This document shows, one piece after another, positions 1-10,646 of a stretch of 32,022 nt of DNA (position 1 is its first letter; each line of letters begins with the position of its first letter). Location of the stretch: contig JAPYTK010000042.1 in NCBI GenBank assembly GCA_029941785.1, positions 1 to 32,022 of the forward strand, in the 5' to 3' direction. Source of the DNA: Polyangiaceae bacterium. GTDB taxonomy: Bacteria > Myxococcota_A > Polyangia > Polyangiales > Polyangiaceae. Both the position numbers and the translations under genes were made by a program. Under the pieces are notes generated by a model that saw only the letters and a program-made list of their open reading frames with translations, ran no database searches and had not been told where the DNA came from.

Positions 1-657
1 GGCCAGAGTGCTACAACGGGAAGTGGCGGGACCGGTGGTGTTCCGCAAGGCAGCGTTGCCGGCACCGGTGCGGCGGTCGGCACGGGTGGTGACGGGGGCA
101 TCGGCGGCGGTACTGGTGGCGTGCTGCAGGGTGGCGCGGCCGGCATGGGCGGCGGTACTGGTGGCGTGCTGCAGGGTGGCGCGGCCGGCATGGGCGGGCA
201 GGGTGGCTCGGTATGCCCGCCGACCTCGACCCTGATGGCGCCGATGATCTGTCCCGCGGTCTGTACGGGCGGCTGCAACGGGACCAGCTGCGACATCGAT
301 TGCGGCGGCGGCAGTGCTTGTTCGGGGCAGACCATCACTTGTCCACCCAATATGGATTGCCGCGTGGTGTGCGACGGGGGCTCGGCTTGTGCGGGAGCCA
401 ACATCACCTGCCCGGTGGCGGGCAGTTGTCTCATCGACTGCATGGGTGGCAGCGTTTGTACCAACGCGGTGATGACCTGCCAGTCTCCCAACGACCCTTG
501 CGACATGAGCTGTACCGGCGGCGGCGCCTGCGTCGGCACGACCTATAGCTGCGCCGCGGGGCCGTGCAGTGTGAACTGCCAGGGGGCTGGAGCCAACTTG
601 ATGTCGCTCACTTGCGGCAGCGCCTGCATCTGCGACAACGTCAACAATTCCTGCTGA
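1..657 (+). CDS. Cys-rich repeat protein with Gly-rich linker (5' end outside window)
   Basis: The reading frame is already open at base 1 and ends with TGA at 655-657, so the start lies to the left of the window. The visible part opens with about 70 residues of Gly/Ala/Thr-rich linker, including two identical 15-residue units. A disulphide-rich domain of about 145 residues follows. In it a unit of the form C-x-I-x-C-G-G-G-S-A-C-x-G-x-x-I-T-C-P recurs about five times, with variants such as CDIDCGGGSAC, CRVVCDGGSAC, CLIDCMGGSVC and CDMSCTGGGAC. The regular cysteines and the linker point to an exported or lipid-anchored surface protein; the signal sequence would be in the missing part. Similar linker-plus-Cys proteins are common in Polyangia. 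No enzyme motif is visible and the function is unknown. Confidence 0.8.
   Translation, partial: GQSATTGSGGTGGVPQGSVAGTGAAVGTGGDGGIGGGTGGVLQGGAAGMGGGTGGVLQGGAAGMGGQGGSVCPPTSTLMAPMICPAVCTGGCNGTSCDIDCGGGSACSGQTITCPPNMDCRVVCDGGSACAGANITCPVAGSCLIDCMGGSVCTNAVMTCQSPNDPCDMSCTGGGACVGTTYSCAAGPCSVNCQGAGANLMSLTCGSACICDNVNNSC
103..192 (+). repeat. 45-bp tandem repeat, two identical copies
   Basis: Bases 103-147 and 148-192 are identical. Each unit encodes the 15 residues GGGTGGVLQGGAAGM inside the linker of the surrounding gene. The period is a multiple of three, so gain or loss of a unit changes only linker length. The nucleotide identity suggests a recent duplication. Confidence 0.9.
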
Positions 658-710
658 CCCGCGGGAAGGTCCAGCGAGCCTCAAAACCCCTGTAAACGGC
701 GGTCATCCGC

Positions 711-802
711 CCTGTCTACCTGCTCCCACGCCAACCATTGCGCATCAGAGACATGATGTTAACTCTCGATGAAAGCCACAAAGGCCCTTCATCGGGACTA
801 GA
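711..802 (-). repeat. Intergenic repeat R1, copy A
   Basis: Read on the minus strand this is a full copy of the R1 family, also present at 1369-1458, 2130-2216 and 6341-6434. It starts with TCTAGTCCCGATGAAGG, forms a hairpin between GATGAAGG.CC and GGCTTTCATC, and continues through GAGAGTTAACATC into a 13-codon frame at 754-716 (minus). That frame reads MSLMRNGWRGSR and ends in TAG. Its orientation is opposite to copies B, C and D. It fills most of the gap between the Cys-rich gene and the small lipoprotein gene at 878. Confidence 0.75.
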
Positions 803-877
803 CTCCCCGTCGAACACATCTTGCGACTAGACTTCCGCTTGAACCACGATTTTCTGAGTGCTAATTTGATGTACCCT

Positions 878-1327
878 ATGAATTCCCTCACCCGGCGCTC
901 GATCATTTGTTCCCTCTTTTTGTTACTGTTGGCGACCGGCTGCAGCAAGAAAGCACCAGCTGAGGCAAACGCTGCACTGGCCGGTGCGCTCGACGCATTA
1001 GCAACCGCCAACAGCAAGGACTTCGTCGCGGCCGTTGTGCCAGCACAACAGGCGAAGGTCCAGACGCTGAAGCAATGGCCGTTCTTTCAGGCGATAAAAG
1101 CGCACAGCATCGATAATGAATTCGACAGAGACGTCACCGACTCGACGGCGACGATCCTTTGCATGGTGTATTTCGATTCCGACAAGAAGGTGCACTCCAC
1201 GCTTCATTTCGACATGAAGAAGGTCGCCGGCAAATGGCATATCGACTTGGCGGAAACGATCAGGATGCAGATCGCCACGAACGGCGCGTTTGCGTTTAAA
1301 AAATACAAATTCGTTATGAAGCCATAA
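878..1327 (+). CDS. Small lipoprotein, NTF2-like character
   Basis: A protein of 149 residues if it starts at ATG 878 (MNSLTRRS). That start gives a normal export signal: basic n-region, hydrophobic core SLFLLLLATG and a lipid-attachment cysteine in LATGC. An in-frame ATG at 869 is an alternative; no clear ribosome site separates them. The mature part has a helical start (ANAALAGALDALATANSKDFVAA given in two pieces: ANAALAGALDAL and ATANSKDF) followed by beta-type segments ending VAGKWHIDLAE. This resembles NTF2-like or DUF4878-like lipoproteins in which a VxGKW strand precedes the C-terminus, but the resemblance is weak and the function unknown. Its base composition looks visibly poorer in GC than its neighbours, which could reflect transfer. 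It is flanked by R1 copies A and B. Confidence 0.75.
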   Translation: MNSLTRRSIICSLFLLLLATGCSKKAPAEANAALAGALDALATANSKDFVAAVVPAQQAKVQTLKQWPFFQAIKAHSIDNEFDRDVTDSTATILCMVYFDSDKKVHSTLHFDMKKVAGKWHIDLAETIRMQIATNGAFAFKKYKFVMKP

Positions 1328-1368
1328 GAAGCTGTCTACCCGTTCCCCAGCTCCACGCGCGCACTACC

Positions 1369-1458
1369 GAGTATAGTCCCGATGAAGGCTCGTGTGGCTT
1401 TCATCGAGAGTCAAAAAACATGTCTCGTATGCGAGGTGGCGGGGTTGGGCGCAGGTAG
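1369..1458 (+). repeat. Intergenic repeat R1, copy B
   Basis: A plus-strand R1 copy. It starts GAGTATAGTCCCGATGAAGG, has the GATGAAGGC / GGCTTTCATC hairpin, and carries a 13-codon frame at 1420-1458 (MSRMRGGGVGRR, TAG stop). The spacer before the ATG is altered (AGTCAAAAAAC instead of AGTTAACATC). It ends 8 bases before the stop of the minus-strand hydrolase gene, so that gene is bracketed by copies B and C in direct orientation. Just upstream, 1331-1345 (GCTGTCTACCCGTTC) resembles the reverse complement of an R1 3' end and may be a truncated second copy. Confidence 0.75.
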
Positions 1459-1466
1459 AGATCGCC

Positions 1467-2120
1467 TTAGTCCGGATGGGCGTCGAGGAGAAACCTCCGA
1501 ACTTGAACGATGTACTCCGGCGCATTGGCGGCGAGGATCGTGTTGTGATCGCCGTCGGGGAAGCGGACAAGCCTCTTGTTGCTCGAGCCCGCCCAGGCGT
1601 GGTTCCGTACGGCGTGGTCGATCGTCACCAATGCGTCCTGCTCCGCGTGCTGCACCCGCACCAACAAGCGTTGCGCGACGTCGGCAATACCGCTCTCCAG
1701 GACCAACCCCGCGATATCCGGGAAGCGGTGCGCCAACTCAATCGCGTAGATCGATCCGACCGACCGCCCAAACGCCACGACCCGTTTGGAGGCTACGCCG
1801 ACCGCCGTCATGATCGGAACCACATCGTCGAGCATGCCGACCAATGCGGGCGTCCCCGTCGAGCCGCCGTAGCCGCGGTACTCGGCGAGGAAGACGTCAA
1901 AACCCTGAAGATCGGCGACGGAGACAAAGGGACTGATCCAGTGCTGCACACGCTCGCCGTTTCCGTGGAAGTGGACCAACACGGGTCGATCGGAGGGGGG
2001 TCGCGATCGCCAGCAGGCAAGCACTCCGCCTTCGACGGGCACCTCCACCGCATCGGCCAGCGGGACGTGCTCTGGAAAGAAGTAGCGCTCGGAGATGAGC
2101 GGGTGGTCGAGGAGACTCAT
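1467..2120 (-). CDS. Alpha/beta hydrolase, BEM46/ABHD13-like, probably internally shortened
   Basis: A protein of 217 residues with an alpha/beta-hydrolase serine-hydrolase layout. The oxyanion motif HFHGNGE is near residue 50, the nucleophile elbow GRSVGS near residue 118, a probable acid is in HAEQDAL and the base is in DGDHNT near the end. No signal peptide is seen, so it is probably cytoplasmic. In the BEM46-type family a stretch of roughly 40 residues normally separates the strand after the elbow (LVLESGIAD) from the strand carrying the acid; here only about 15 residues do, so an in-frame deletion may have removed that part of the fold. No ribosome site precedes ATG 2120, and repeat R1 copy C starts 10 bases upstream. 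It may therefore be a decaying gene. The family call is from motifs; the deletion is inferred from memory of the family. Confidence 0.75.
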   Translation of the reverse strand: MSLLDHPLISERYFFPEHVPLADAVEVPVEGGVLACWRSRPPSDRPVLVHFHGNGERVQHWISPFVSVADLQGFDVFLAEYRGYGGSTGTPALVGMLDDVVPIMTAVGVASKRVVAFGRSVGSIYAIELAHRFPDIAGLVLESGIADVAQRLLVRVQHAEQDALVTIDHAVRNHAWAGSSNKRLVRFPDGDHNTILAANAPEYIVQVRRFLLDAHPD

Positions 2121-2129
2121 CGCCGCATA

Positions 2130-2216
2130 GTATAGTCCCTACGAAGGCCCGTGTGGCTTTCATCGGGAGTTAACATCATGTCTCTTATGCGCCATTGCGC
2201 GGGCGGGAGCAGGTAG
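2130..2216 (+). repeat. Intergenic repeat R1, copy C
   Basis: A plus-strand R1 copy starting GTATAGTCCCTACGAAGG, with the hairpin ending GGCTTTCATCGGGAG and a 13-codon frame at 2178-2216 (MSLMRHCAGGSR, TAG stop). GGGAG lies 8 bases before this ATG and could act as a ribosome site. The 39-base frame is identical to that of copy D at 6392-6430. It occupies the gap between the divergently placed starts and ends of the hydrolase and the propeller lipoprotein. Confidence 0.8.
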
Positions 2217-2262
2217 GCCGAGTGAGCTTGACGACACACTCATGGTTGCATCGCAGAATGCC

Positions 2263-3672
2263 TCATTCGCTGTACGTTGCGTAGCCAATCCACTGCTCTG
2301 CGCCGCCCCCACACGGGCTCGTTCCCGCGATGTTCTTTCCGCCGAAGTAATGGCCGTGAAATACGGCCTTGCCTTCGCGCATTTCGATCACCATGCCGGT
2401 GGCAGTGATACGCCCGCTGTCCCACGCGTTTGGGTCGTCGTTCTCCAACACCGGGTTGTTCGGGTTGAGATACACGCGCGTCAGGTCGTGATGACTGAAG
2501 CCATGATGCACGCGGTAGATCGGCCGTCCTCCCTCCGTCGCTGGCGGCGTGCGCGTCTGCCAGAACCAGTGAACACCGCCGCGTGGATCGAGCGCCCAGT
2601 CGGGTTGACCGGCACCGAGGCCCTTGCCATTGCTTGTGATGATGGGCGTGCTGAGCCGGAGCCAGGTCGCGCCGTCATCCGGGCTACCGGCAATTCCGAT
2701 GCTAGGCTTCTGGCCGTTGGCATAGGTGACGCCGCCGTAAGGGGTGACGAGCCAGCCGCATCGTTTTGGCATCAGCGCGGGCTCCTGGCAGCCGCCCGTG
2801 AGCTTTCCCTGTTGGTTCTGCCATGGCGCCTCCCATGGTTGCACGGGGGATAGCGGCGTGCCGATGCGCTCGTAGGGACCGGACCAGTCTTCGGCGCGCC
2901 ACAAACTGACCGAGTCGGTCCGGTTACCTGCCTCGTATTGGTACTCGGTCACGGCGAGCAGCCAGCGATCGGCGGTTTCGTCGTAGCGCAATGACGGCGT
3001 TTCGAACTGCATAGGTTGTTGTTGGCCCGCGATGAACAGCGGAGTCAGCACGGGGATGGGCGTGGACCAGTTGATGCCATCGTCGCTTTCTGTGCCCCAG
3101 ATCGCGGTTGGGTACCGTTTCAGTGCCGGGCTCCAGTGGGGGCTGTTGAAAACCATGCGAAAGCCACCGCCAGGTTTGAGCACCACGTCGGGATCCGTGC
3201 CGAAGCCGCACAGGTTGAGGTTGGTGCCCGCAGCGATGGGTTCACCTTCCGCGCTGACGCCGGCTTTTTGAACCGCGCGGCCTTCTCGCTTCAACTTGCC
3301 AATGAATGCGTAAGAAGGGAGGGCTCCGTTCGCGGCCTCGGCCGGGAGCATTTCAGGTGGGCTGCCGTCGCCGCCGAGCATGGCGGTGAATGCTTCGATC
3401 GTCGGTGACATGTCGCAGTCGGGATCCGTGATGCCGCCGCCACCACCGTTCGGAACGAAGCTAGCGCTCGAAACGGACCCCCCGGACCCCTGCTCTGCAA
3501 CGGGAAGGTCAGCGTCGCCGGTAGGGCCACATGCCACTGCAGCCAAGAGAGTGGAGGCGCCGAGAAGAGGGAGGAGGGAGCTTCCTCGTTTCGTCTTCTG
3601 GAGCCTCTTGTGGGACTTCCCATCGTTGGGGTGGGGAGAGATGAAGGTGCAGTTGGTATGTCGTTCGGTCAT
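2263..3672 (-). CDS. Lipoprotein with sialidase-type beta-propeller (Asp boxes)
   Basis: The start is set at ATG 3672 because GAGGAGG stands just upstream (GAGGAGGAACC-ATG); an in-frame ATG at 3732 lacks such a site. The product has 469 residues. A basic n-region (KRLQKTKRG), hydrophobic core and LLAAVAC give a lipid-attached Cys at about residue 48. A Gly/Ser linker follows, then a domain with two Asp-box motifs (ESDDGINW and SPDDGATW) and other strand patterns such as TPSLRYDETADRWLLAVTE. These features are typical of sialidase/GH43-like propellers with five or six blades. It is probably a surface glycan-binding or glycan-cleaving protein; the catalytic residues could not be assigned. It is separated from the neighbouring lipoproteins by repeats and so is probably transcribed alone. 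Confidence 0.8.
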   Translation of the reverse strand: MTERHTNCTFISPHPNDGKSHKRLQKTKRGSSLLPLLGASTLLAAVACGPTGDADLPVAEQGSGGSVSSASFVPNGGGGGITDPDCDMSPTIEAFTAMLGGDGSPPEMLPAEAANGALPSYAFIGKLKREGRAVQKAGVSAEGEPIAAGTNLNLCGFGTDPDVVLKPGGGFRMVFNSPHWSPALKRYPTAIWGTESDDGINWSTPIPVLTPLFIAGQQQPMQFETPSLRYDETADRWLLAVTEYQYEAGNRTDSVSLWRAEDWSGPYERIGTPLSPVQPWEAPWQNQQGKLTGGCQEPALMPKRCGWLVTPYGGVTYANGQKPSIGIAGSPDDGATWLRLSTPIITSNGKGLGAGQPDWALDPRGGVHWFWQTRTPPATEGGRPIYRVHHGFSHHDLTRVYLNPNNPVLENDDPNAWDSGRITATGMVIEMREGKAVFHGHYFGGKNIAGTSPCGGGAEQWIGYATYSE

Positions 3673-3884
3673 GGTTCCTCCTCGTGGGGGCGCGGCGTTG
3701 TTGGGTTCAAATTGATTAGTAGCAAGCTGCATGCCGAATGCGGCGATAACGGCACCAGCATGCGAATGCGCCTAAACGAAGGTGCTTTTGATGAACGCTG
3801 GCAACTCGTTCGCCGTGTGAGCTGCGCAAGCGGCGTACACCTCTGCCTATGCCGCCCCCTAGCGGGCTAACACGCACAGAGCGT

Positions 3885-3966
3885 CGTCCACCTGCTGCCA
3901 CCCTAAATTGGCGCATACGAGATGTGAGGTTCGTCCGCTCCATGCCCCCTTCGATGGGTCGGACCG
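3885..3966 (-). repeat. Decayed copy of intergenic repeat R1 (copy E)
   Basis: Read on the minus strand, this stretch keeps the order of R1 landmarks: CATCGAAGGGGGCATGGAGC, then ACATCTCGTATGCGCCA, then GGCAGCAGGTGGAC. Two bases are lost where the other copies have the ATG, so the 13-codon frame is destroyed. It is much more diverged than copies A to D. The rest of the 3673-3978 gap shows nothing recognisable apart from the ribosome site of the gene starting at 3672. Confidence 0.45.
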
Positions 3967-3978
3967 GCGAGGAAAGAC

Positions 3979-5343
3979 TCAGGATGCGGGCTTGATGGCT
4001 TTGTACACGGCCGGCGCGCCTAAGGCGCCGCTGATGAAGAACAAGCGCCCGCCGTCGTCGTCGGCCAACATGACTGGTGATGGAAGACCGGTCAGCAGCG
4101 TCACCTCATTCTGACCGTCCAAGTCCGTTCGTTTCAGTTCGCCGGTGTTGGCGTAAAAGCCGGTGTTCACCCAGTACACGTGTTTTTGGTCGACCACGAT
4201 CCCTGCGGGGTGGGCGTTGTCTCCCGCGCCGAGTGACTCGGGTGCACCCCCGAGGAGCCGCACTCGCCAGACGGTGCCTCCATCGCTTTCGGTCCAGTAG
4301 GCATGCGTGGCGTCGGCGTCCACGAACACGGCGCAGGCGCGACCAGATACGAGCAACTCGGCCGGTCCGGCTCCAGTCGTCCGGTACAGACTGCTGGAGT
4401 TGGGATTGTTGCATTGAAAGAGGGGATAATCGTGCACCAGACCTACGGACTCGCTGAACACGACGACGTCGCTCGAGTTGACCGCGATTTTGCCCCAAGT
4501 CGTGAAACCGGCGCGACTCGCCAACTGGATTGTCGACTTGCCATCGTCGTACCAGACACCGAGATCGGTCAGGTAATAGGCAGCATAGGCTGGCCCTCCC
4601 CCATAGGTGACGTCCACGGCGGCTCCCGGCACCGAGGTGATTGGAAGGGGCGTGAGATCGATGGGCAGTTTTGCCCGATACAATTGCTCGTGGTCGCCCA
4701 ACGACAGGTGCTCCGGTTGGAGCGATGGGGGGACCGCCAACGCCAACACCGCGTTGTTGCTGACCGTGACTGGCGTCGCTGCGGTCGGCAACGTGGCGGT
4801 CTTGTCGACCGCGTACACAATACGCTTGGCTTCCGCCATCGTGAAATAGACTTTGCCCGTGTCTTGATTGCGCTCCACGGCGAGCGTCACGGCGCCATAT
4901 TGGGTGGGCGCGGTCAACGCCACCGCGCCACATTGCCCTTGGGCGCACGATCCTCCTTCGCAGTCATGCCCGCAGGCACCACACTGTTTCGGATCCGTTT
5001 GGGTATCGACGCATACTCCATCGCAGGTTTGCGCTCCGTTCGGGCAACCGCCGCCGACGACCTGGCTGCCGCCCGCGCCGGAGCCTGCTACATGTTGACC
5101 ACCGGGGTCGCTGCCGCCTGCCTGGTTGCCGCCCACGTCGGTCCCGCATTCGCCACATGGTTGCTGTACGTCGAAAAGGCTACACCCGGTGCTCAGCCAA
5201 GGGGCCATGGCCAGCAAGCAGACCGCGCTCACACGGTTCACCATCCGGCGCATTCCCGCAGTCGGCTTGGCCTCGCGATTCGAAAATCCGCTCGCGAGCG
5301 GCGGGCTCGTCCTGAGGGGACCAAGAAACATTCTCTTCGACAT
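3979..5343 (-). CDS. Lipoprotein with Cys-rich module and six-bladed-type beta-propeller
   Basis: A protein of 454 residues. AGGAGG stands 8 bases before ATG 5343 and supports that start, although it gives a long n-region; hydrophobic AVCLLAMAPWL and STGC place the lipid Cys at about residue 54. A linker rich in Gly/Ala follows, then a short Cys module (CPNGAQTCDGVCVD, CGACGHDCEGGSC) that is a hallmark of Polyangia secreted proteins. The remaining 300 or so residues are repeated strands with signatures such as AVDKTATLP, THAYWTESDGGTVWRV and KHVYWVNTGFYANTGEL, as in LDL-receptor-YWTD/DUF5050-like propellers. It is probably a surface binding protein. Ligand and role are unknown. No catalytic motif is seen. 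Confidence 0.8.
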   Translation of the reverse strand: MSKRMFLGPLRTSPPLASGFSNREAKPTAGMRRMVNRVSAVCLLAMAPWLSTGCSLFDVQQPCGECGTDVGGNQAGGSDPGGQHVAGSGAGGSQVVGGGCPNGAQTCDGVCVDTQTDPKQCGACGHDCEGGSCAQGQCGAVALTAPTQYGAVTLAVERNQDTGKVYFTMAEAKRIVYAVDKTATLPTAATPVTVSNNAVLALAVPPSLQPEHLSLGDHEQLYRAKLPIDLTPLPITSVPGAAVDVTYGGGPAYAAYYLTDLGVWYDDGKSTIQLASRAGFTTWGKIAVNSSDVVVFSESVGLVHDYPLFQCNNPNSSSLYRTTGAGPAELLVSGRACAVFVDADATHAYWTESDGGTVWRVRLLGGAPESLGAGDNAHPAGIVVDQKHVYWVNTGFYANTGELKRTDLDGQNEVTLLTGLPSPVMLADDDGGRLFFISGALGAPAVYKAIKPAS

Positions 5344-5419
5344 GGGGAAGTCCTCCTTCTCGATTGGGTCTTTTCAGTCTGACATCACTCAGCTGGCCTT
5401 CCCCCATACTCCGCTTGGC

Positions 5420-6103
5420 TCAGCCACTGCCGGTACTCGTCCAACCCGTAGATGTCGCTGCACCCTCGGAGCCGGTTGCGCAAAATACGACAACTGCCCC
5501 TTCGAGGCAGTTCCACAGTCCTTCCGCGTCGCCCGCATCGGGGCAGTTGTCGAAGTAGCTCGCATCGCGCAGTTTGGCAGGACCCAAACACGAGCCGTTC
5601 CAACCGAGGTCAAGGAGGTCAAGGGTCGAATACACCGCGAGCCGGTTGGGCAGGATGCTGATCCCGCGCGACCATTCGTAATTGGGCGACGGCGACGCGG
5701 ACCAGCCGACCGATCCGACGTCCCCCTGCTTCAGCGCAGACAGCACGCACGATACGGCGCTCGGATTCATCACGGTCGTCGATGGCTCGCCCGGTATTCC
5801 GTTGAACTGTATCGCATCGCAGAGTGGCTCGCCGGCGCACGCTTCCGTCCACTTGCAGGCATCGGAACTGGAAGAGCCCATACCGGAGTTCATACCGTAC
5901 CCGTCGGAACGACAGGTGCTGCTGCCCGAGCAGGTGGTTTCGCCTCCACCGCCGCCGCCGATGCCACCTTGGCCGCCTTGGCCGCCGGTGCCAGCTGGGC
6001 CGCTCGTGCTTGCGCCGTCGCCGAGGCTCGTGCTGCCGCACCCGGCTGAAGAGCTCAGGATGATGCCGCTCAGCATCAGGATCAATGTTGTCGTGTGTGC
6101 CAT
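5420..6103 (-). CDS. Lipoprotein of unknown function with Gly linker
   Basis: A protein of 227 residues from ATG 6103, which has GAGGAG 7 bases upstream; an open frame extends further to 6241 but has no site and would spoil the signal sequence. The signal is MAHTTTLILMLSGIILSSSAGC with lipid Cys at residue 22. Next come a Gly-rich linker (GTGGQGGQGG and a run of six Gly) and a C-terminal domain of about 170 residues with scattered cysteines (CSGSSTC, CKWTEAC, CLGPAKL, CLEGAVVVFC) that could form disulphides. I do not recognise the domain. It sits 76 bases from the propeller lipoprotein on the same strand, so the two may share a transcript, with this one first. Confidence 0.75.
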   Translation of the reverse strand: MAHTTTLILMLSGIILSSSAGCGSTSLGDGASTSGPAGTGGQGGQGGIGGGGGGETTCSGSSTCRSDGYGMNSGMGSSSSDACKWTEACAGEPLCDAIQFNGIPGEPSTTVMNPSAVSCVLSALKQGDVGSVGWSASPSPNYEWSRGISILPNRLAVYSTLDLLDLGWNGSCLGPAKLRDASYFDNCPDAGDAEGLWNCLEGAVVVFCATGSEGAATSTGWTSTGSG

Positions 6104-6340
6104 GTTCAATCTCCTCTCGACGAATCGTCGTGTCGATGAAGGATTGAGCAACACCCGTGCCAGGCACGAGATCCGGCGTTGTGGGCCCGATCCGCCTGAC
6201 CGAACGCGGCGACGCGCGTGAACTGCGCATGGACGGTACACCCCTGCGTGTGCGGTCCCCGACTCACATCGCGCGCCAAAGCCTCACGGTCACTCAACGT
6301 AGTCGCTCGTCAACTCAACCAGCGACCGCGCCAGTTGTCC

Positions 6341-6434
6341 GAGTATAGCCCCGATGAAGGCCCTTTATGGCTTTCATTGAGAGTTAGCATCATGTCTCTT
6401 ATGCGCCATTGCGCGGGCGGGAGCAGGTAGACAG
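6341..6434 (+). repeat. Intergenic repeat R1, copy D
   Basis: A plus-strand R1 copy: GAGTATAGCCCCGATGAAGG, the hairpin closing with GGCTTTCATT, the spacer GAGAGTTAGCATC, and a 13-codon frame at 6392-6430 (MSLMRHCAGGSR, TAG). It is followed by ACAG as in copy A. The frame is base-for-base the same as in copy C although the hairpin and spacer differ at several places. It lies in the 799-base gap 6104-6902, which also holds R2 copy 1 and an R3 remnant and no intact gene. Confidence 0.8.
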
Positions 6435-6530
6435 CTGACTCGAACGAATTTTCGAGGTCACGGCGATGGCCACGGGCACTTCATGGCACGGGACCTCCGC
6501 CTCGAGCTTGCTGGAACCCGTCCAGAGAGT

Positions 6531-6645
6531 GGTTGACTGCGCGCGGGCTTGGCCGGCGCGCCAGGCGATACGGAATCCTGCCCACAAACGTGAAGAGGCG
6601 GCTAAAGAGCCGCCTCGTACACTTTGGTTGACTGCGCGCGGGCGC
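6531..6645. repeat. Repeat R2, copy 1, with perfect hairpin and tRNA-end-like tail
   Basis: Bases 6554-6616 match 9315-9378 almost exactly. Within the block, 6595-6603 (GAGGCGGCT) and 6608-6616 (AGCCGCCTC) form a perfect 9-bp stem with loop AAAG. The tail 6616-6630 (CGTACACTTTGGTTG) is identical to the bases covering the 3' end of the tRNA at 10561-10575. It continues ACTGCGCGCGGGC, which is also found at 6534 and at 10468. On the minus strand the hairpin is followed by a short TT and could act as a terminator. Confidence 0.75.
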
Positions 6646-6699
6646 GCTCTGCGACCTGGAGCACGCGATAACGCTCGAGTTTGAGGTGGCGTTGCTGGG

Positions 6700-6875
6700 C
6701 TAGGCGGAGGAGGCTTGCGCGTCGGTGGCGTCGAACGTGCGGGGGGTGGCGATGACGCCGCGTGGCGCCAGCCCCGGCCAACATGAAGCTCAGGTTGGAG
6801 AGCCGGGCCAGCCGGTAGGCGTTGTCGAAGCGACCGCGAACGTCGTCTGAACACCGCCCGCCGGGGCATTGAGCT
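6700..6875 (-). pseudogene. R3 remnant 1: C-terminal fragment of a myxobacterial membrane protein
   Basis: The minus strand encodes CPGGRCSDDVRGRFDNAYRL followed by ARLSNLSFMLAGAGA, then shifts frame by a net 2 bases relative to its sister copy before PRTFDATDAQASSA and a TAG at 6702-6700. The order Cys-pro-x-gly-x-Cys, short helix, hydrophobic segment, Asp-Ala-rich tail resembles the C-terminal end of myxobacterial TPR/PEGA-type membrane proteins (compare forms like TVSTIGFVVGGVG). The rest of such a protein is missing, so I read this as a broken fragment. It matches 7961-8119 over about 155 bases. The parent family is assigned from memory. Confidence 0.5.
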
Positions 6876-6902
6876 GCGATGGCGTGTGTCTCGCTCAGCG
6901 GA

Positions 6903-7736
6903 TCACCCTTTGAGGGCTCCGACTGGCACGCAGAGAGCACCCTCTGCGGCCGCGATCAGCTGGCTCCCTGCCACACAAGTCCCGATCAGGAAATCGCTGC
7001 TGTAATACTGGGAGCAGCGGCACATGCGCACGCAGTTGTCGTAGCTCGCCTCAACGATGCAACAGACCAGTGCGTTCACGGCGCCTTCGCAGTCATCCGG
7101 CTTCGGATTGCGAGCGCGGCATGTCTTTTCGCAGCGGCCTGAGGAGGACATCATGGATGTGCCAAACTCACCCAAGGTAGACTCGGCATTAGTGGCTATC
7201 TCGACCAGCACCTCGTAGACCAAGGGAACGCGCGGCGCGATTTGCGCCAGTGGTTGGGACGCGCTCGCGAGCTCTGCCGCCGTGAACTGTGCGCTCGTGG
7301 TGTCCGTCTCGATGAGGAAACTGAGCGTCCCGTCGGCGTTGCTGGTTTGCCAGTGGAAGCTCGGCGTGCCGTCGACGGTCGCATCCAGCGATTGCGTGCC
7401 GTGCGCGGACCGTACGCTCAGATGCCACGATTCGGTCTCATCGGGAGTGTCGGCGACAAAGATCAGCTGGACACCCTCACCCGTCGGCGCAGCCATCACG
7501 CTGTGAACGTGTCTGCCGCCTGTCGAGGTGAAGTCGACGGCCGGCAATGCACGCCACGCTGTTTGTTCTTCGCCGAGCGCTTCACCCTCCAACGCGGACG
7601 CGAGGCGCTGCACGTGCTCGTCCTCGAGATCCTGATCGACGGCACAGCCGGGCGCGACCGCTAGGCTGAGCAGCCCGATCGCCGCCGAGGTCTTGATGGT
7701 CTTCAACAGGCTGTTCATCTTCTCGATGTTGTACAT
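6903..7736 (-). CDS. Lipoprotein with Cys-rich C-terminus, unknown function
   Basis: A protein of 277 residues from ATG 7736, which has AGGAGA 6 bases upstream; a longer open frame to 7838 lacks this. The signal runs through KTIKTSAAIGLLSLAVAPGC with the lipid Cys at about residue 31. The first 170 residues of the mature protein look like beta strands (FTSTGGRHVHSVMAAP, GVQLIFVADTPDETESWHL). A Cys-rich end follows: CEKTCRARN, CEGAVNALVCC, CVRMCRCSQYY, CVAGSQL. That dense cysteine pattern suggests a disulphide knot outside the cytoplasm. I do not recognise the family. The gene stands between two direct copies of the R3 fragment, which suggests it was trapped or moved with them. Confidence 0.75.
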   Translation of the reverse strand: MYNIEKMNSLLKTIKTSAAIGLLSLAVAPGCAVDQDLEDEHVQRLASALEGEALGEEQTAWRALPAVDFTSTGGRHVHSVMAAPTGEGVQLIFVADTPDETESWHLSVRSAHGTQSLDATVDGTPSFHWQTSNADGTLSFLIETDTTSAQFTAAELASASQPLAQIAPRVPLVYEVLVEIATNAESTLGEFGTSMMSSSGRCEKTCRARNPKPDDCEGAVNALVCCIVEASYDNCVRMCRCSQYYSSDFLIGTCVAGSQLIAAAEGALCVPVGALKG

Positions 7737-7900
7737 GGCTCGTCTCCTGGTCGCCGTGTGCGACCGAATGGGTGGGTGTTGGCCAGGAATAGAGCAAGAC
7801 GTGTGCCGAAGGGATCGGAGCGAGGGTGCCCTTGTCAAGTGTATGTAATCAAGCGAGTTGGGTCGGTTCGCGGGGTGCGGCTGCGCACCTTACGTACGGC

Positions 7901-8119
7901 CCTGCGGGCGCGTCCATGCACCGAGGCGCCTCCCAGTTCGATGCGCACGTGAAGAGAGCCTGCGTCGGTGGCGTCGACCGTGCGGGGGATGCCGATACCC
8001 GAAGCTGCGGCGCCAGCCCCGGCCAACATGAAGCTCAGGTTGGAGATCCGGGCCAGCCGGTAGGCGTTGTCGAAGCGATCGCGAACGTCGTCTGAACACC
8101 GCCCGATGGGGCATGGAGC
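7901..8119 (-). pseudogene. R3 remnant 2: C-terminal fragment of the same membrane protein
   Basis: The minus strand reads CPIGRCSDDVRDRFDNAYRL, ARISNLSFMLAGAGAAASGI and then VDATDAGSLHVRIELGGASV. Compared with remnant 1 it has kept frame through the hydrophobic segment into a tail that looks like the final strand of the parent protein (GGASVHGR). No N-terminal part is present upstream, where the frame soon becomes low-complexity. The 155 matching bases are in direct orientation with remnant 1 and about 1.24 kb apart. The rest of the 7737-8164 gap shows nothing else. Confidence 0.45.
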
Positions 8120-8164
8120 CCTGGTTGACGTAGGCGCGGGCGGCGAGGCCGGCGCGTCAAAATC

Positions 8165-9106
8165 GTGCTCTCGCCACAAGGTGGAGAATGGAAGCGCTCG
8201 CACCGGCGTTTCAACTCCATGACATGGTCGAATCGTCGTCACCGCTCAGCGCGTTCAAAGCGTCGCTTCTTTTACTGTCCCGTTGTGTCGCCCGCCGCCT
8301 TGTCGGTCGTCGTGCCAGTAAAGGACAACGCTCCCGGGGTCCTTCGCTTGTTGCGCACCTTCGCCCTACTGCGACCATCGGTGCGGCCCGCCTGCGTGAT
8401 CATCGTCGATAACAACTCATCGCCACCACTACAGCTTCAAGGCAACTGGCCGCTGCCCGTTTATGTCCTGCGCTGTGATCGAAAGGGACCCGCTGCTGCG
8501 CGAAATGACGGATGGCGTGCAGCGCGAACGGAATGGGTCCTGTTCATGGACTCCGACTGCGTGCCCACCGAGAGCTTGTTGCCAGGTTTCTGCTCGGCAG
8601 CCGATGGCTCCATCGCGTACGCCGGGGCCGTCGAGCCTCTCGATGAAGGATGGCTCGTTGATTATTACCACAGTCAGAAGATCCTCGAGCCTCCACCAGA
8701 GGAGGACGGGCGGCCGGCGTATCTAGTGACGGCAAACGCACTCGTGCTTCGGCAAGCGCTCGACTTCGTGGGAGGCTTCAACGAACGCTTCGAACTCGCC
8801 GCCGGAGAAGACATCGACCTTGGATGGCGACTGCGGCGGTTCGGCGAACTCGCTTATGCCCCGCGCGCGCTGATGCTCCACGAATTCGGCAACAACTTGA
8901 ACGATTTCGTGACGCGGTTCAAACGCTACGGTGTCGGGAATCTCATGCTGGAGCAGTTGCACGCCACGCCGATGACACCCAAAGCGTTTGCGGCCAACAG
9001 CACCGACCCCATGCACAAGCTCTGCGCCGTAGCCCAGTACGTCGCGATGACCTACGGCTACATCAGCGGCGCGTATCAGTACGGCCCGCAGAGTGGCACC
9101 CACTAA
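8165..9106 (+). CDS. Family 2 glycosyltransferase (GT-A fold)
   Basis: The frame from GTG 8165 gives 313 residues, but the conserved domain begins only near residue 44 (LSVVVPVKDN), and the first 40 residues are Arg/Ser-rich and unlike the family. GTG 8285 or ATG 8219 may be the real start; none has a clear ribosome site. The nucleotide-sugar-binding VVVPVKDN and IIVDNNSS segments are followed by the metal-binding DSD at about 129-131 (FMDSDCVP) and the acceptor-side motif GEDIDLGWRL near 225, all in the expected order. No membrane segments are seen. It probably transfers a sugar to a cytoplasm-facing glycan or lipid; donor and acceptor cannot be read from the sequence. It stands alone, with no other glycan gene next to it, in a repeat-rich area. 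Confidence 0.85.
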   Translation: MLSPQGGEWKRSHRRFNSMTWSNRRHRSARSKRRFFYCPVVSPAALSVVVPVKDNAPGVLRLLRTFALLRPSVRPACVIIVDNNSSPPLQLQGNWPLPVYVLRCDRKGPAAARNDGWRAARTEWVLFMDSDCVPTESLLPGFCSAADGSIAYAGAVEPLDEGWLVDYYHSQKILEPPPEEDGRPAYLVTANALVLRQALDFVGGFNERFELAAGEDIDLGWRLRRFGELAYAPRALMLHEFGNNLNDFVTRFKRYGVGNLMLEQLHATPMTPKAFAANSTDPMHKLCAVAQYVAMTYGYISGAYQYGPQSGTH

Positions 9107-9314
9107 GCCGAGCGGGGTACGCGCCTGCATGGCGTCAGCCAAACTCGGACCAAAGTGGGGCGCGGAGTTAAGGGACACTTTCGGAGGCGAGAAAGCCTCG
9201 AAGGAGTGTCAAATGTCACGGAAGAAGAAACCCTCAGCAGAAGCTGGCGTCAGAGATATGCGACGAAGGGGCACGCGACCACTCGAGCCAGGACGCCGCG
9301 GGGGCAGCCACGCC

Positions 9315-9414
9315 GGCGCGCGCCAGGCGATACGGAATCCTGCCCACAAACGCGAAGAGGCGGCTAAAGAGCCGCCTCGATCGAGTGTGGTTGACTGCGC
9401 GCAGGCTTGGCCGC
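9315..9414. repeat. Repeat R2, copy 2
   Basis: The second R2 copy has the same 9-bp hairpin (GAGGCGGCT at 9357-9365 with AGCCGCCTC at 9370-9378). It differs at one base in the upstream block, and its tail reads GTGTGGTTGACTGCGCGCAG then GCTTGGCCGCC. The tRNA-end motif is less well kept here (CGAGTGTGGTTG). The repeat lies in the 361-base gap 9107-9467. The remainder of that gap holds a possible broken reading frame starting at ATG 9212 after GAAGGAGTGTCAA (MSRKKKPSAEAGVRDMRRRG), which runs into the repeat and is not called as a gene. Confidence 0.75.
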
Positions 9415-9467
9415 CGGTGCAGTAAAGGGCCTTCGTACCGACGACAAAACTTGGCAGGAGACTCTTG

Positions 9468-10319
9468 ATGGTAGCTCGAACGAAGAGCACAATAGGCAGA
9501 GTGCCTTTTCATTGGGCAGGAATGGTAACCATCGCTGGCCTCGTGCTCGCCTGCGCTGGCTGCACCCAACCGCGAAAGCATGGGTCGAGTGGCGGTAAGC
9601 AAACGGCTACGCCAACGGCGGTCGGGACGCCGAGCGGCACGAGTTCGGCGTTGCCAAGTGCATCGCTCACCGCAAGCGCTGCATCGCGTGGGCAGGGGCC
9701 GAGACCTTCGGTCGATTTCGTGAAGGGCGCAGCGGTGCGGGTCGAGTGGCAGGGAAGCTGGTGGCCGGCGAAAATCCTCGCGGTAGATGGTGCCCGCTAT
9801 CAGATCCGTTACGACGGCTACGGTGCACAATGGGATGAATGGGTGGGGCTTAAACGGCTCCGTGTGCTGTGCAAACCCTGTCCCGCGGGCTACCGCGGCG
9901 AAACCACCCCGGGTTGTCGCTGCCCGCCTGACTTCGAGGGGGTCGAGGTCCCCGAAGGGAGTAAGCTTATCGCCCGGGAAGATCGCCCCGGTCACCACGG
10001 GGGCAACAGCGCTCAACGCTGGCTGTTGAGCCCTCTCGCGCCGGCCGAGACGGCCGCGTTCTTCGCGCAGCAGCCCGGGGCGACCACCATGGCCGCTTTG
10101 AGCTACACGGTTGCCGGCTGGACGGTGACGGTGATGCCGCTCGAGCCGATCCCGAAGAAGCGCCATGGTCAAAGCCTTGTCGCCAGCGTGCCCTCGGGGT
10201 TTCGCGCCTGGATCAAACTCAACCATGATACCCCTCCGCCTCCCTGTAAGCCCTGTCCACCGGGCATGGTGCGCGCGTCGACATCCACCTGCGGTTGCAT
10301 GCCTCGGCAAGGCCGATAG
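9468..10319 (+). CDS. Lipoprotein with Tudor-knot domain and two CxxC modules
   Basis: A protein of 283 residues from ATG 9468, with AGGAG 7 bases upstream. An export signal (VTIAGLVLACAGC) places the lipid Cys at residue 32, followed by a Ser/Thr/Ala linker. Residues 85 to 133 (KGAAVRVEWQGSWWPAKIL, YQIRYDGYGAQWDEWV) match the pattern of a Tudor-knot/chromo-barrel fold: a five-strand barrel with aromatic residues and a WDEWV end. That domain is best known from eukaryotic chromatin proteins, but related barrels occur in myxobacterial exported proteins. It is followed by CKPCPAGYRGETTPGCRCP, a middle domain of about 85 residues, and a second similar module CKPCPPGMV...CGCMP at the end. It is probably anchored in the envelope. 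Ligand and role are unknown. Confidence 0.8.
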   Translation: MVARTKSTIGRVPFHWAGMVTIAGLVLACAGCTQPRKHGSSGGKQTATPTAVGTPSGTSSALPSASLTASAASRGQGPRPSVDFVKGAAVRVEWQGSWWPAKILAVDGARYQIRYDGYGAQWDEWVGLKRLRVLCKPCPAGYRGETTPGCRCPPDFEGVEVPEGSKLIAREDRPGHHGGNSAQRWLLSPLAPAETAAFFAQQPGATTMAALSYTVAGWTVTVMPLEPIPKKRHGQSLVASVPSGFRAWIKLNHDTPPPPCKPCPPGMVRASTSTCGCMPRQGR

Positions 10320-10453
10320 GCGCACCGTCGACGAGTCACTTCGCTCGACAAACTGCGCATCAGTAGGTCGCATGATGGTGACGGCCGAAGCGGGCAAGTC
10401 GCGGGCTGCAGGCGGGCTATACCTGGCGTCAGATCGGCGCGAGGATGCCGCAT

Positions 10454-10490
10454 CGTACACTTTGGTTGACTGCGCGCGGGCTTGGCCGCC
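10454..10490. repeat. Copy of tRNA-end repeat close to the tRNA gene
   Basis: Bases 10454-10468 (CGTACACTTTGGTTG) repeat exactly the bases at 10561-10575 that cover the tRNA 3' end, and the same 15 bases occur at 6616-6630. The copy continues ACTGCGCGCGGGCTTGG, as in R2. It lies in the 250-base gap between the Tudor-knot gene and the tRNA. That gap also holds a short direct repeat, GTGGACTCG, at about 10509 and 10529. No gene is seen in the gap. Confidence 0.7.
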
Positions 10491-10569
10491 CGTGCTCGTC
10501 GACCTCCGTGGACTCGTGCCCTTCAGTGGACTCGCAGGGCGCGTCCACTTCTCGGGTACTCGTACACTT

Positions 10570-10646
<77 letters not shown>

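Follow-up and report, generated by a model that had tools for sequence, protein, structure and literature searches.

A dif site is expected once per chromosome, and published examples share an 11-6-11 plan of two arms around a central hexamer (PMC2731167). In Acinetobacter, dif or pdif modules consist of genes bounded by clustered 28-bp XerC/XerD sites with a 6-bp centre unlike that of the main dif, and host XerC/XerD recombine the sites that have matching centres (PMC12907356, PMC13141974, PMC11705084); one chromosome carries 22 dif-module sites, ten of them in a 36-kb island (PMC12907356), and excision has been described between sites in direct orientation with equal centres (PMC11705084, PMC13141974). 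Here we describe a 94-bp intergenic repeat of a Polyangiaceae bacterium, present in four copies near one end of a 32,022-nucleotide stretch (the window; contig C42 of the draft genome G000, 6.03 Mb in 415 contigs), with a dif-type XerC/XerD site in the middle of each copy. By analogy, its nearest known kin are the Acinetobacter dif modules, and its layout is that of an integron. No report of Xer-site arrays in Myxococcota was found in the open-access literature.

The likeness to each of these systems is partial. As in Acinetobacter, genes lie between clustered Xer sites whose centre departs from dif, but the inverse adjacent sites and bare 28-mers of the modules are not the pattern here: Acinetobacter islands hold about ten bare sites without a shared flank, in alternating orientation and with varied centres, whereas this array, in a distant phylum, has at least 169 copies of a conserved 94-bp unit with one centre, mostly in direct orientation. 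Integron arrays and clusters of attC sites lacking integron integrases (CALINs) share with it long arrays, about one gene per interval, a preference for one orientation and site-specific junctions, but neither attC boxes nor an integron integrase were found in this draft genome, the site is a double-arm Xer site matching the host dif, and the genes point either way. Integrative mobile elements exploiting Xer (IMEX; for example CTXphi, GGI and TLC) use host XerC/XerD for single insertions at dif and bring phage or island genes with them, whereas this array lies away from dif with ordinary genes between its sites. Plasmid cer and psi dimer-resolution sites combine an Xer core with conserved neighbouring sequence, one per plasmid; they do not form arrays, and their accessory sequence is of other length and content. 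Repetitive extragenic palindromes (REP) and the mosaic elements built from them (BIME), enterobacterial repetitive intergenic consensus sequences (ERIC) and miniature inverted-repeat transposable elements (MITEs) are likewise short, intergenic, high-copy repeats with a hairpin. Unlike them, the family described here has no REP-associated tyrosine transposase (RAYT), terminal inverted repeats or target-site duplication, carries a functional-looking recombination site and is confined to part of the genome.

Alignment of copies gave an exact unit of 94 bp, GAGTATAGTCCCGATGAAGGCCCTTTATGGCTTTCATCGAGAGTTAACATAATGTCTCTTATGCGCAATGGTTGGGGTGGGAGCAGGTAGACAG, with sharp ends and flanks devoid of any conserved base, and all four window repeats belong to it. 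The original prediction, made from the window sequence, proposed a mobile intergenic element with a structural RNA or a leader-peptide-like unit and suggested looking for further copies in the genome. When its own genome was searched with a single copy and then with a model built from 31 copies, the family proved to extend far beyond chance: the model search returned at least 153 matches at E<=0.01, and 50 contigs (424 kb) hold at least 169 copies that score 50 bits or more and 223 pieces that score 20 bits or more, the copy number being a lower bound. Besides these contigs, 8 control and 80 further stretches were examined, and the other 1.08 Mb sampled contained only 3 copies (0.003 per kb, against 0.40 per kb in the 50 contigs), which restricts the family to a limited portion of the genome. 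Congeners lack the unit, although one of them has a diverged sister family, and neither an exact-pattern search of GTDB contigs and IMG/VR nor blastn against plasmids gave a match. High copy number, sharp ends, a location in gene gaps and this restricted distribution support the mobile, intergenic part of the original prediction; what it overlooked was the XerC/XerD site in the middle of the unit.

That site lies on the opposite strand of the repeat and has the 28-bp consensus ATTGCGCATAA-GAGACA-TTATGTTAACT, the reverse complement of the whole unit being CTGTCTACCTGCTCCCACCCCAACC-ATTGCGCATAA-GAGACA-TTATGTTAACT-CTCGATGAAAGCCATAAAGGGCCTTCATCGGGACTATACTC. The genome's single dif, on contig C265, reads ATTGCGCATAA-GATATA-TTATGTTAACT. 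Both 11-bp consensus arms are thus identical to those of the host dif (22 of 22 bases, a chance of about 1e-11 per unit), and the central hexamer is the sole difference in the core. Of 143 copies, 126 preserve the centre GAGACA and 77 have no or one arm mismatch. Conserved bases continue for about 25 positions beyond the XerC arm and about 41 beyond the XerD arm, the latter including a hairpin-like segment. When 317 genomes of the class were scanned for the two arms with any centre, G000 yielded 124 sites and nearly all others 0 to 2, with the reversed control pattern near zero; weak matches to the family model in other genomes of the order were mostly their dif sites. No copy was found on the 7.1-kb contig that carries dif. 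The only Xer-type recombinases found in the genome were one XerD, which passes its family cut-off (L120), and one XerC-like protein (L121), whose best match is XerC (E 6e-89) at 298 bits, below the cut-off of 335; another two tyrosine recombinases seem to be associated with phage and IS91. On sequence grounds, identification of the repeat core as a XerC/XerD (dif-type) site is well supported, and more than 100 such sites beside a normal dif were unexpected.

The window spans an edge of the array, and its sites are worn to different degrees. Copy 1 (712..805, minus strand, 98.1 bits to the family model) contains a site at 737..764 that reads from C to D on the plus strand, ATTGCGCATCA GAGACA TGATGTTAACT, with 2 mismatches to the host dif arms. 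The other three copies are on the plus strand with their sites on the minus strand. Copy 2 (1369..1460, 76.2 bits) is the most degenerate of the four, its decayed site at 1410..1437 (ACCTCGCATAC GAGACA TGTTTTTTGAC) having 11 arm mismatches around an intact centre. Copy 3 (2129..2218, 85.4 bits) has 2 mismatches in its site at 2168..2195 (ATGGCGCATAA GAGACA TGATGTTAACT), and copy 4 (6341..6434, 94.5 bits) has 3 in its site at 6382..6409 (ATGGCGCATAA GAGACA TGATGCTAACT). Copy 4 is the last in the contig; no copy lies past 6434, and core genes follow, among them a tRNA (10573-10646) and a large helicase-like gene from 10700.

Across the genome, 84 of 112 neighbouring pairs of copies have a common orientation (p 6e-8), a preference that goes beyond contig-level bias (p 0.0035). 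An explanation of this strand preference by replication was rejected, the preference showing no correlation with GC skew. The intervals between copies have a median length of about 1.5 kb and mostly hold one predicted gene, as called with a simple gene caller. Ninety-two array-encoded proteins fell into 68 Pfam families, nearly all seen once, and no transposase was among the 25 top families listed. Array DNA finds little counterpart in congeners, unlike the adjoining core region: within positions 1-6434 of the window the only DNA match longer than 100 bp in two congeneric genomes was part of one interval gene, whereas 10.5-20 kb matches both congeners at 70-76%. On another contig, C164, only a few genes match congeners.

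Extended Xer-site repeats, judged from their sequences, occur several times in the class. A genome of the same order but another family (G056; metagenome-assembled genome CAIXWQ01, bin-4440) has 16 Xer sites including dif, and all save dif have the centre GGAGTC within a 134-bp repeat that is unrelated to the 94-bp unit outside the core; nearly all copies examined are 100% identical, and searches for the element elsewhere found it only in its own assembly. In G029, from the same family but another genus, a 109-bp repeat surrounds CGCATAA-GATAGC-TTATGTAAA. Both G056 and G029 have a dif whose centre is unlike that of their repeats. The congener G002 carries about 24 copies (loci L214-L233) of a sister unit with the same ends, CTGTC...CTATACTC, in which the XerC arm is kept and the XerD arm is degraded; behind several of these copies stands one or the other of two further repeated sequences. 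G051 (L303-L305) and G239 (L297-L299) likewise have three or four Xer-like sites with longer flanking repeats in common, possibly further families. In the distant class member G146, which has loci L296 (C179:149-170) and L264 (C198:72015-72036), a second site shares 63 bases on its left with dif but has a different centre and right-hand sequence, a pattern that an IMEX-like insertion at dif would leave.

We consider it probable that the repeats form a Xer cassette array with an integron-like layout, served by the host XerC and XerD. Each repeat would be an extended recombination site, a 28-bp dif-type core within the 94-bp unit, and host XerC and XerD would recombine copies that have the common GAGACA centre. 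Recombination between direct repeats would excise the intervening gene or genes as a circle with one site, able to integrate again at any of the other copies; genes would be reshuffled and acquired in the manner of an integron, the host recombinases standing in for the integron integrase. The differing centre would shield the array against recombination with dif, which would damage the chromosome, and the flanking parts of the unit may be accessory sequence, as in cer and psi sites. This explanation covers genes that already have a site.

Signs of movement agree with such a model. In G056, the 5,140-bp contig C147 has the same 119 bases at both ends, including 30 bp of cargo, and could be either a 5,021-bp circle or a tandem unit, with one Xer site and SPOR and response-regulator/SpoIIE-type genes as cargo. 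The first 136 bases of a second contig, C1377, repeat the tail of C147 exactly, over 47 bp of cargo, the left repeat half and the whole core; 3 bases past the core the two contigs part, C1377 continuing with a different right half and different cargo. A single cargo end thus has two alternative partners across one Xer core, the outcome expected of site-specific recombination, which suggests, indirectly, Xer action. Chimeric assembly of this junction is unlikely, as the stretch that the two forms have in common within the element does not reach the length of the 119-bp overlap. In 17 pairs of copies in G000, one flank is common to both members while the other flank differs, and there is no pair in which both flanks agree; in the clearest pair (C167:5136 and C256:3501), the common flank shows 1 difference in 35 bases and the opposite flank 15 in 51 (p 0.0016).

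Several observations weigh against a cassette array. The contig C147 could reflect a tandem duplication instead of a circle, the majority of shared flanks in G000 measure only tens of bases and so may be extended sub-families, and linkage among variable sites is low throughout and does not locate crossovers. The core is barely better conserved than the flanks (p 0.06), the inner XerD arm reads TGAT instead of TTAT in 38 of 143 copies that have ATAA on the C side, and 25% of neighbouring copies are inverted. The distribution of genes per interval (89, 22, 8, 3 and 2) agrees with gaps being occupied independently (geometric, p 0.69; expected 86, 26, 8, 3 and 1), and so gives cassettes no advantage over single insertions. 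In several duplicated stretches the alignment ends at an outer edge of the unit and not at the core, and gene fragments are joined directly to the unit, as where a 176-bp piece of a flagellin-like gene, intact elsewhere, lies between two repeat copies (L081:2315-2490, L066:11081-11258); such outer-edge breaks are left unaccounted for by Xer recombination at the core. Mobilisation of intervals by Xer is inferred from sequence.

The outer-edge breaks and the random occupancy of gaps make a self-inserting 94-bp element the main rival. In that case a stand-alone, MITE-like repeat would have inserted copy by copy between the genes of a single chromosomal domain; the dif-type core, though real, would serve the element itself, for example in resolution after insertion or as a borrowed site for a host factor, and the interval genes would be ordinary residents. 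The sharp ends and unconserved flanks are as expected of such an element, the sister family in G002 keeps both ends despite its degraded XerD arm, and the identical 134-bp copies in G056 resemble a burst. Yet there is no target-site duplication, no terminal inverted repeat and no Y1/RAYT transposase in the genome, and the array proteins add none among their top Pfam families. Confinement to 50 contigs and the runs of equal orientation need an extra assumption, no pair of elements has both flanks in common, and the switch of partners at the G056 junction is located at the core. We regard self-insertion as unlikely to be the whole explanation, though it is a serious contender, and self-insertion and Xer shuffling may both act.

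A true integron or CALIN, with the repeats as attC sites moved by an integron integrase, would account for an array of sites with about one gene per interval and prevailing direct orientation, but we hold it to be very improbable. The GTTRRRY/RYYYAAC boxes are absent from the element ends and the arms are identical to dif instead, complementary flanks around elements, as in attC or a long hairpin, were in no excess over shuffled pairs, and no protein reaches the integron-integrase cut-off. Four tyrosine recombinases were found in the draft genome, for which alone these integrase negatives hold, and the three scored in full fell far below the TIGR02249 cut-off. The fourth, partly masked, lies on contig C329 (L196) beside an IS91-type transposase and a group II intron; that intron holds the genome's one reverse transcriptase, on a contig without a repeat copy.

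A regulatory unit in front of genes, acting as leader peptide or structured RNA, is equally improbable. The frames of the four window copies (ATG, 12 codons, TAG), with their peptides, were as the original prediction had stated, and all four contain the hairpin. Genome-wide, the 39-base frame that it took to be constant is kept in only 80 of 136 copies. Mean information at codon positions 1, 2 and 3 is 1.49, 1.70 and 1.74 bits, so that position 1 is the most variable and position 3 the least, the reverse of coding constraint. The "ATG" consists of the last base of the inverted XerD arm and two bases of the central hexamer, and the 13-codon frame is a coincidence. In the hairpin, outer and loop-side pairs are kept and two middle pairs form in only 43-51% of copies; no covariation was detected by RNAalifold on 31 copies or by pair counts on 142 distinct copies, where changes on both sides were no commoner than in slid controls. 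Rfam scans of the element at gathering and relaxed thresholds gave no match, and copies are oriented at random relative to neighbouring genes (28, 24, 23 and 22). The original prediction held that its readings would fall if genome-wide copies did not keep the frame and lacked compensatory changes in the hairpin; the additional copies show just this, and both the RNA and the leader peptide are set aside. Least probable of all are REP-like repeats spread by a RAYT transposase, which would be intergenic, high in copy number and hairpin-bearing, as here, but neither the length nor the dif core fits, and no PF01797 protein was found in the genome although control genomes were positive.

Within the window, the interval between copies 1 and 2 holds a gene for a small lipoprotein-like protein (869..1327, plus strand), and that between copies 2 and 3 a gene that looks by eye like an alpha/beta-hydrolase (1467..2120, minus strand). 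The latter is the interval gene partly matched in congeners, and a partial second copy lies at C49:2389-2758 with 94-96% identity. Between copies 3 and 4 are three minus-strand genes (2263-3672, 3979-5244 and 5420-6241; together 2263..6241), for which no DNA match longer than 100 bp was found in the two congeneric genomes. Other repeats were seen beyond the array edge. A dispersed repeat of about 145 bp at 9124-9269 has copies in C150, C94 and C335 and in the congener G002 at 81%; a 34-nt repeat (GGTTGACTGCGCGCGGGC...) occurs in four places within 6514-10491; and a 62-bp repeat with a terminator-like GGCGGCTAAAGAGCCGCC lies at 6556 and 9318.

Taken at the level of the class, our findings raise the proposal, which we judge evenly balanced, that Polyangia evolved an equivalent of the integron more than once, in the form of large cassette arrays on the chromosome whose genes are collected, excised and reordered by host XerC/XerD, in place of a dedicated integrase, at extended dif-like sites with a private central hexamer. 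If so, the essential machinery for chromosome dimer resolution would double as a gene-capture system outside Acinetobacter, and on the scale of a super-integron. Breaks of contigs at the repeats would help explain why such genomes assemble poorly. It would also become testable how the hexamer insulates such an array against dif, which role the additional conserved sequence plays, and whether Xer systems have repeatedly given rise to integron-like platforms.

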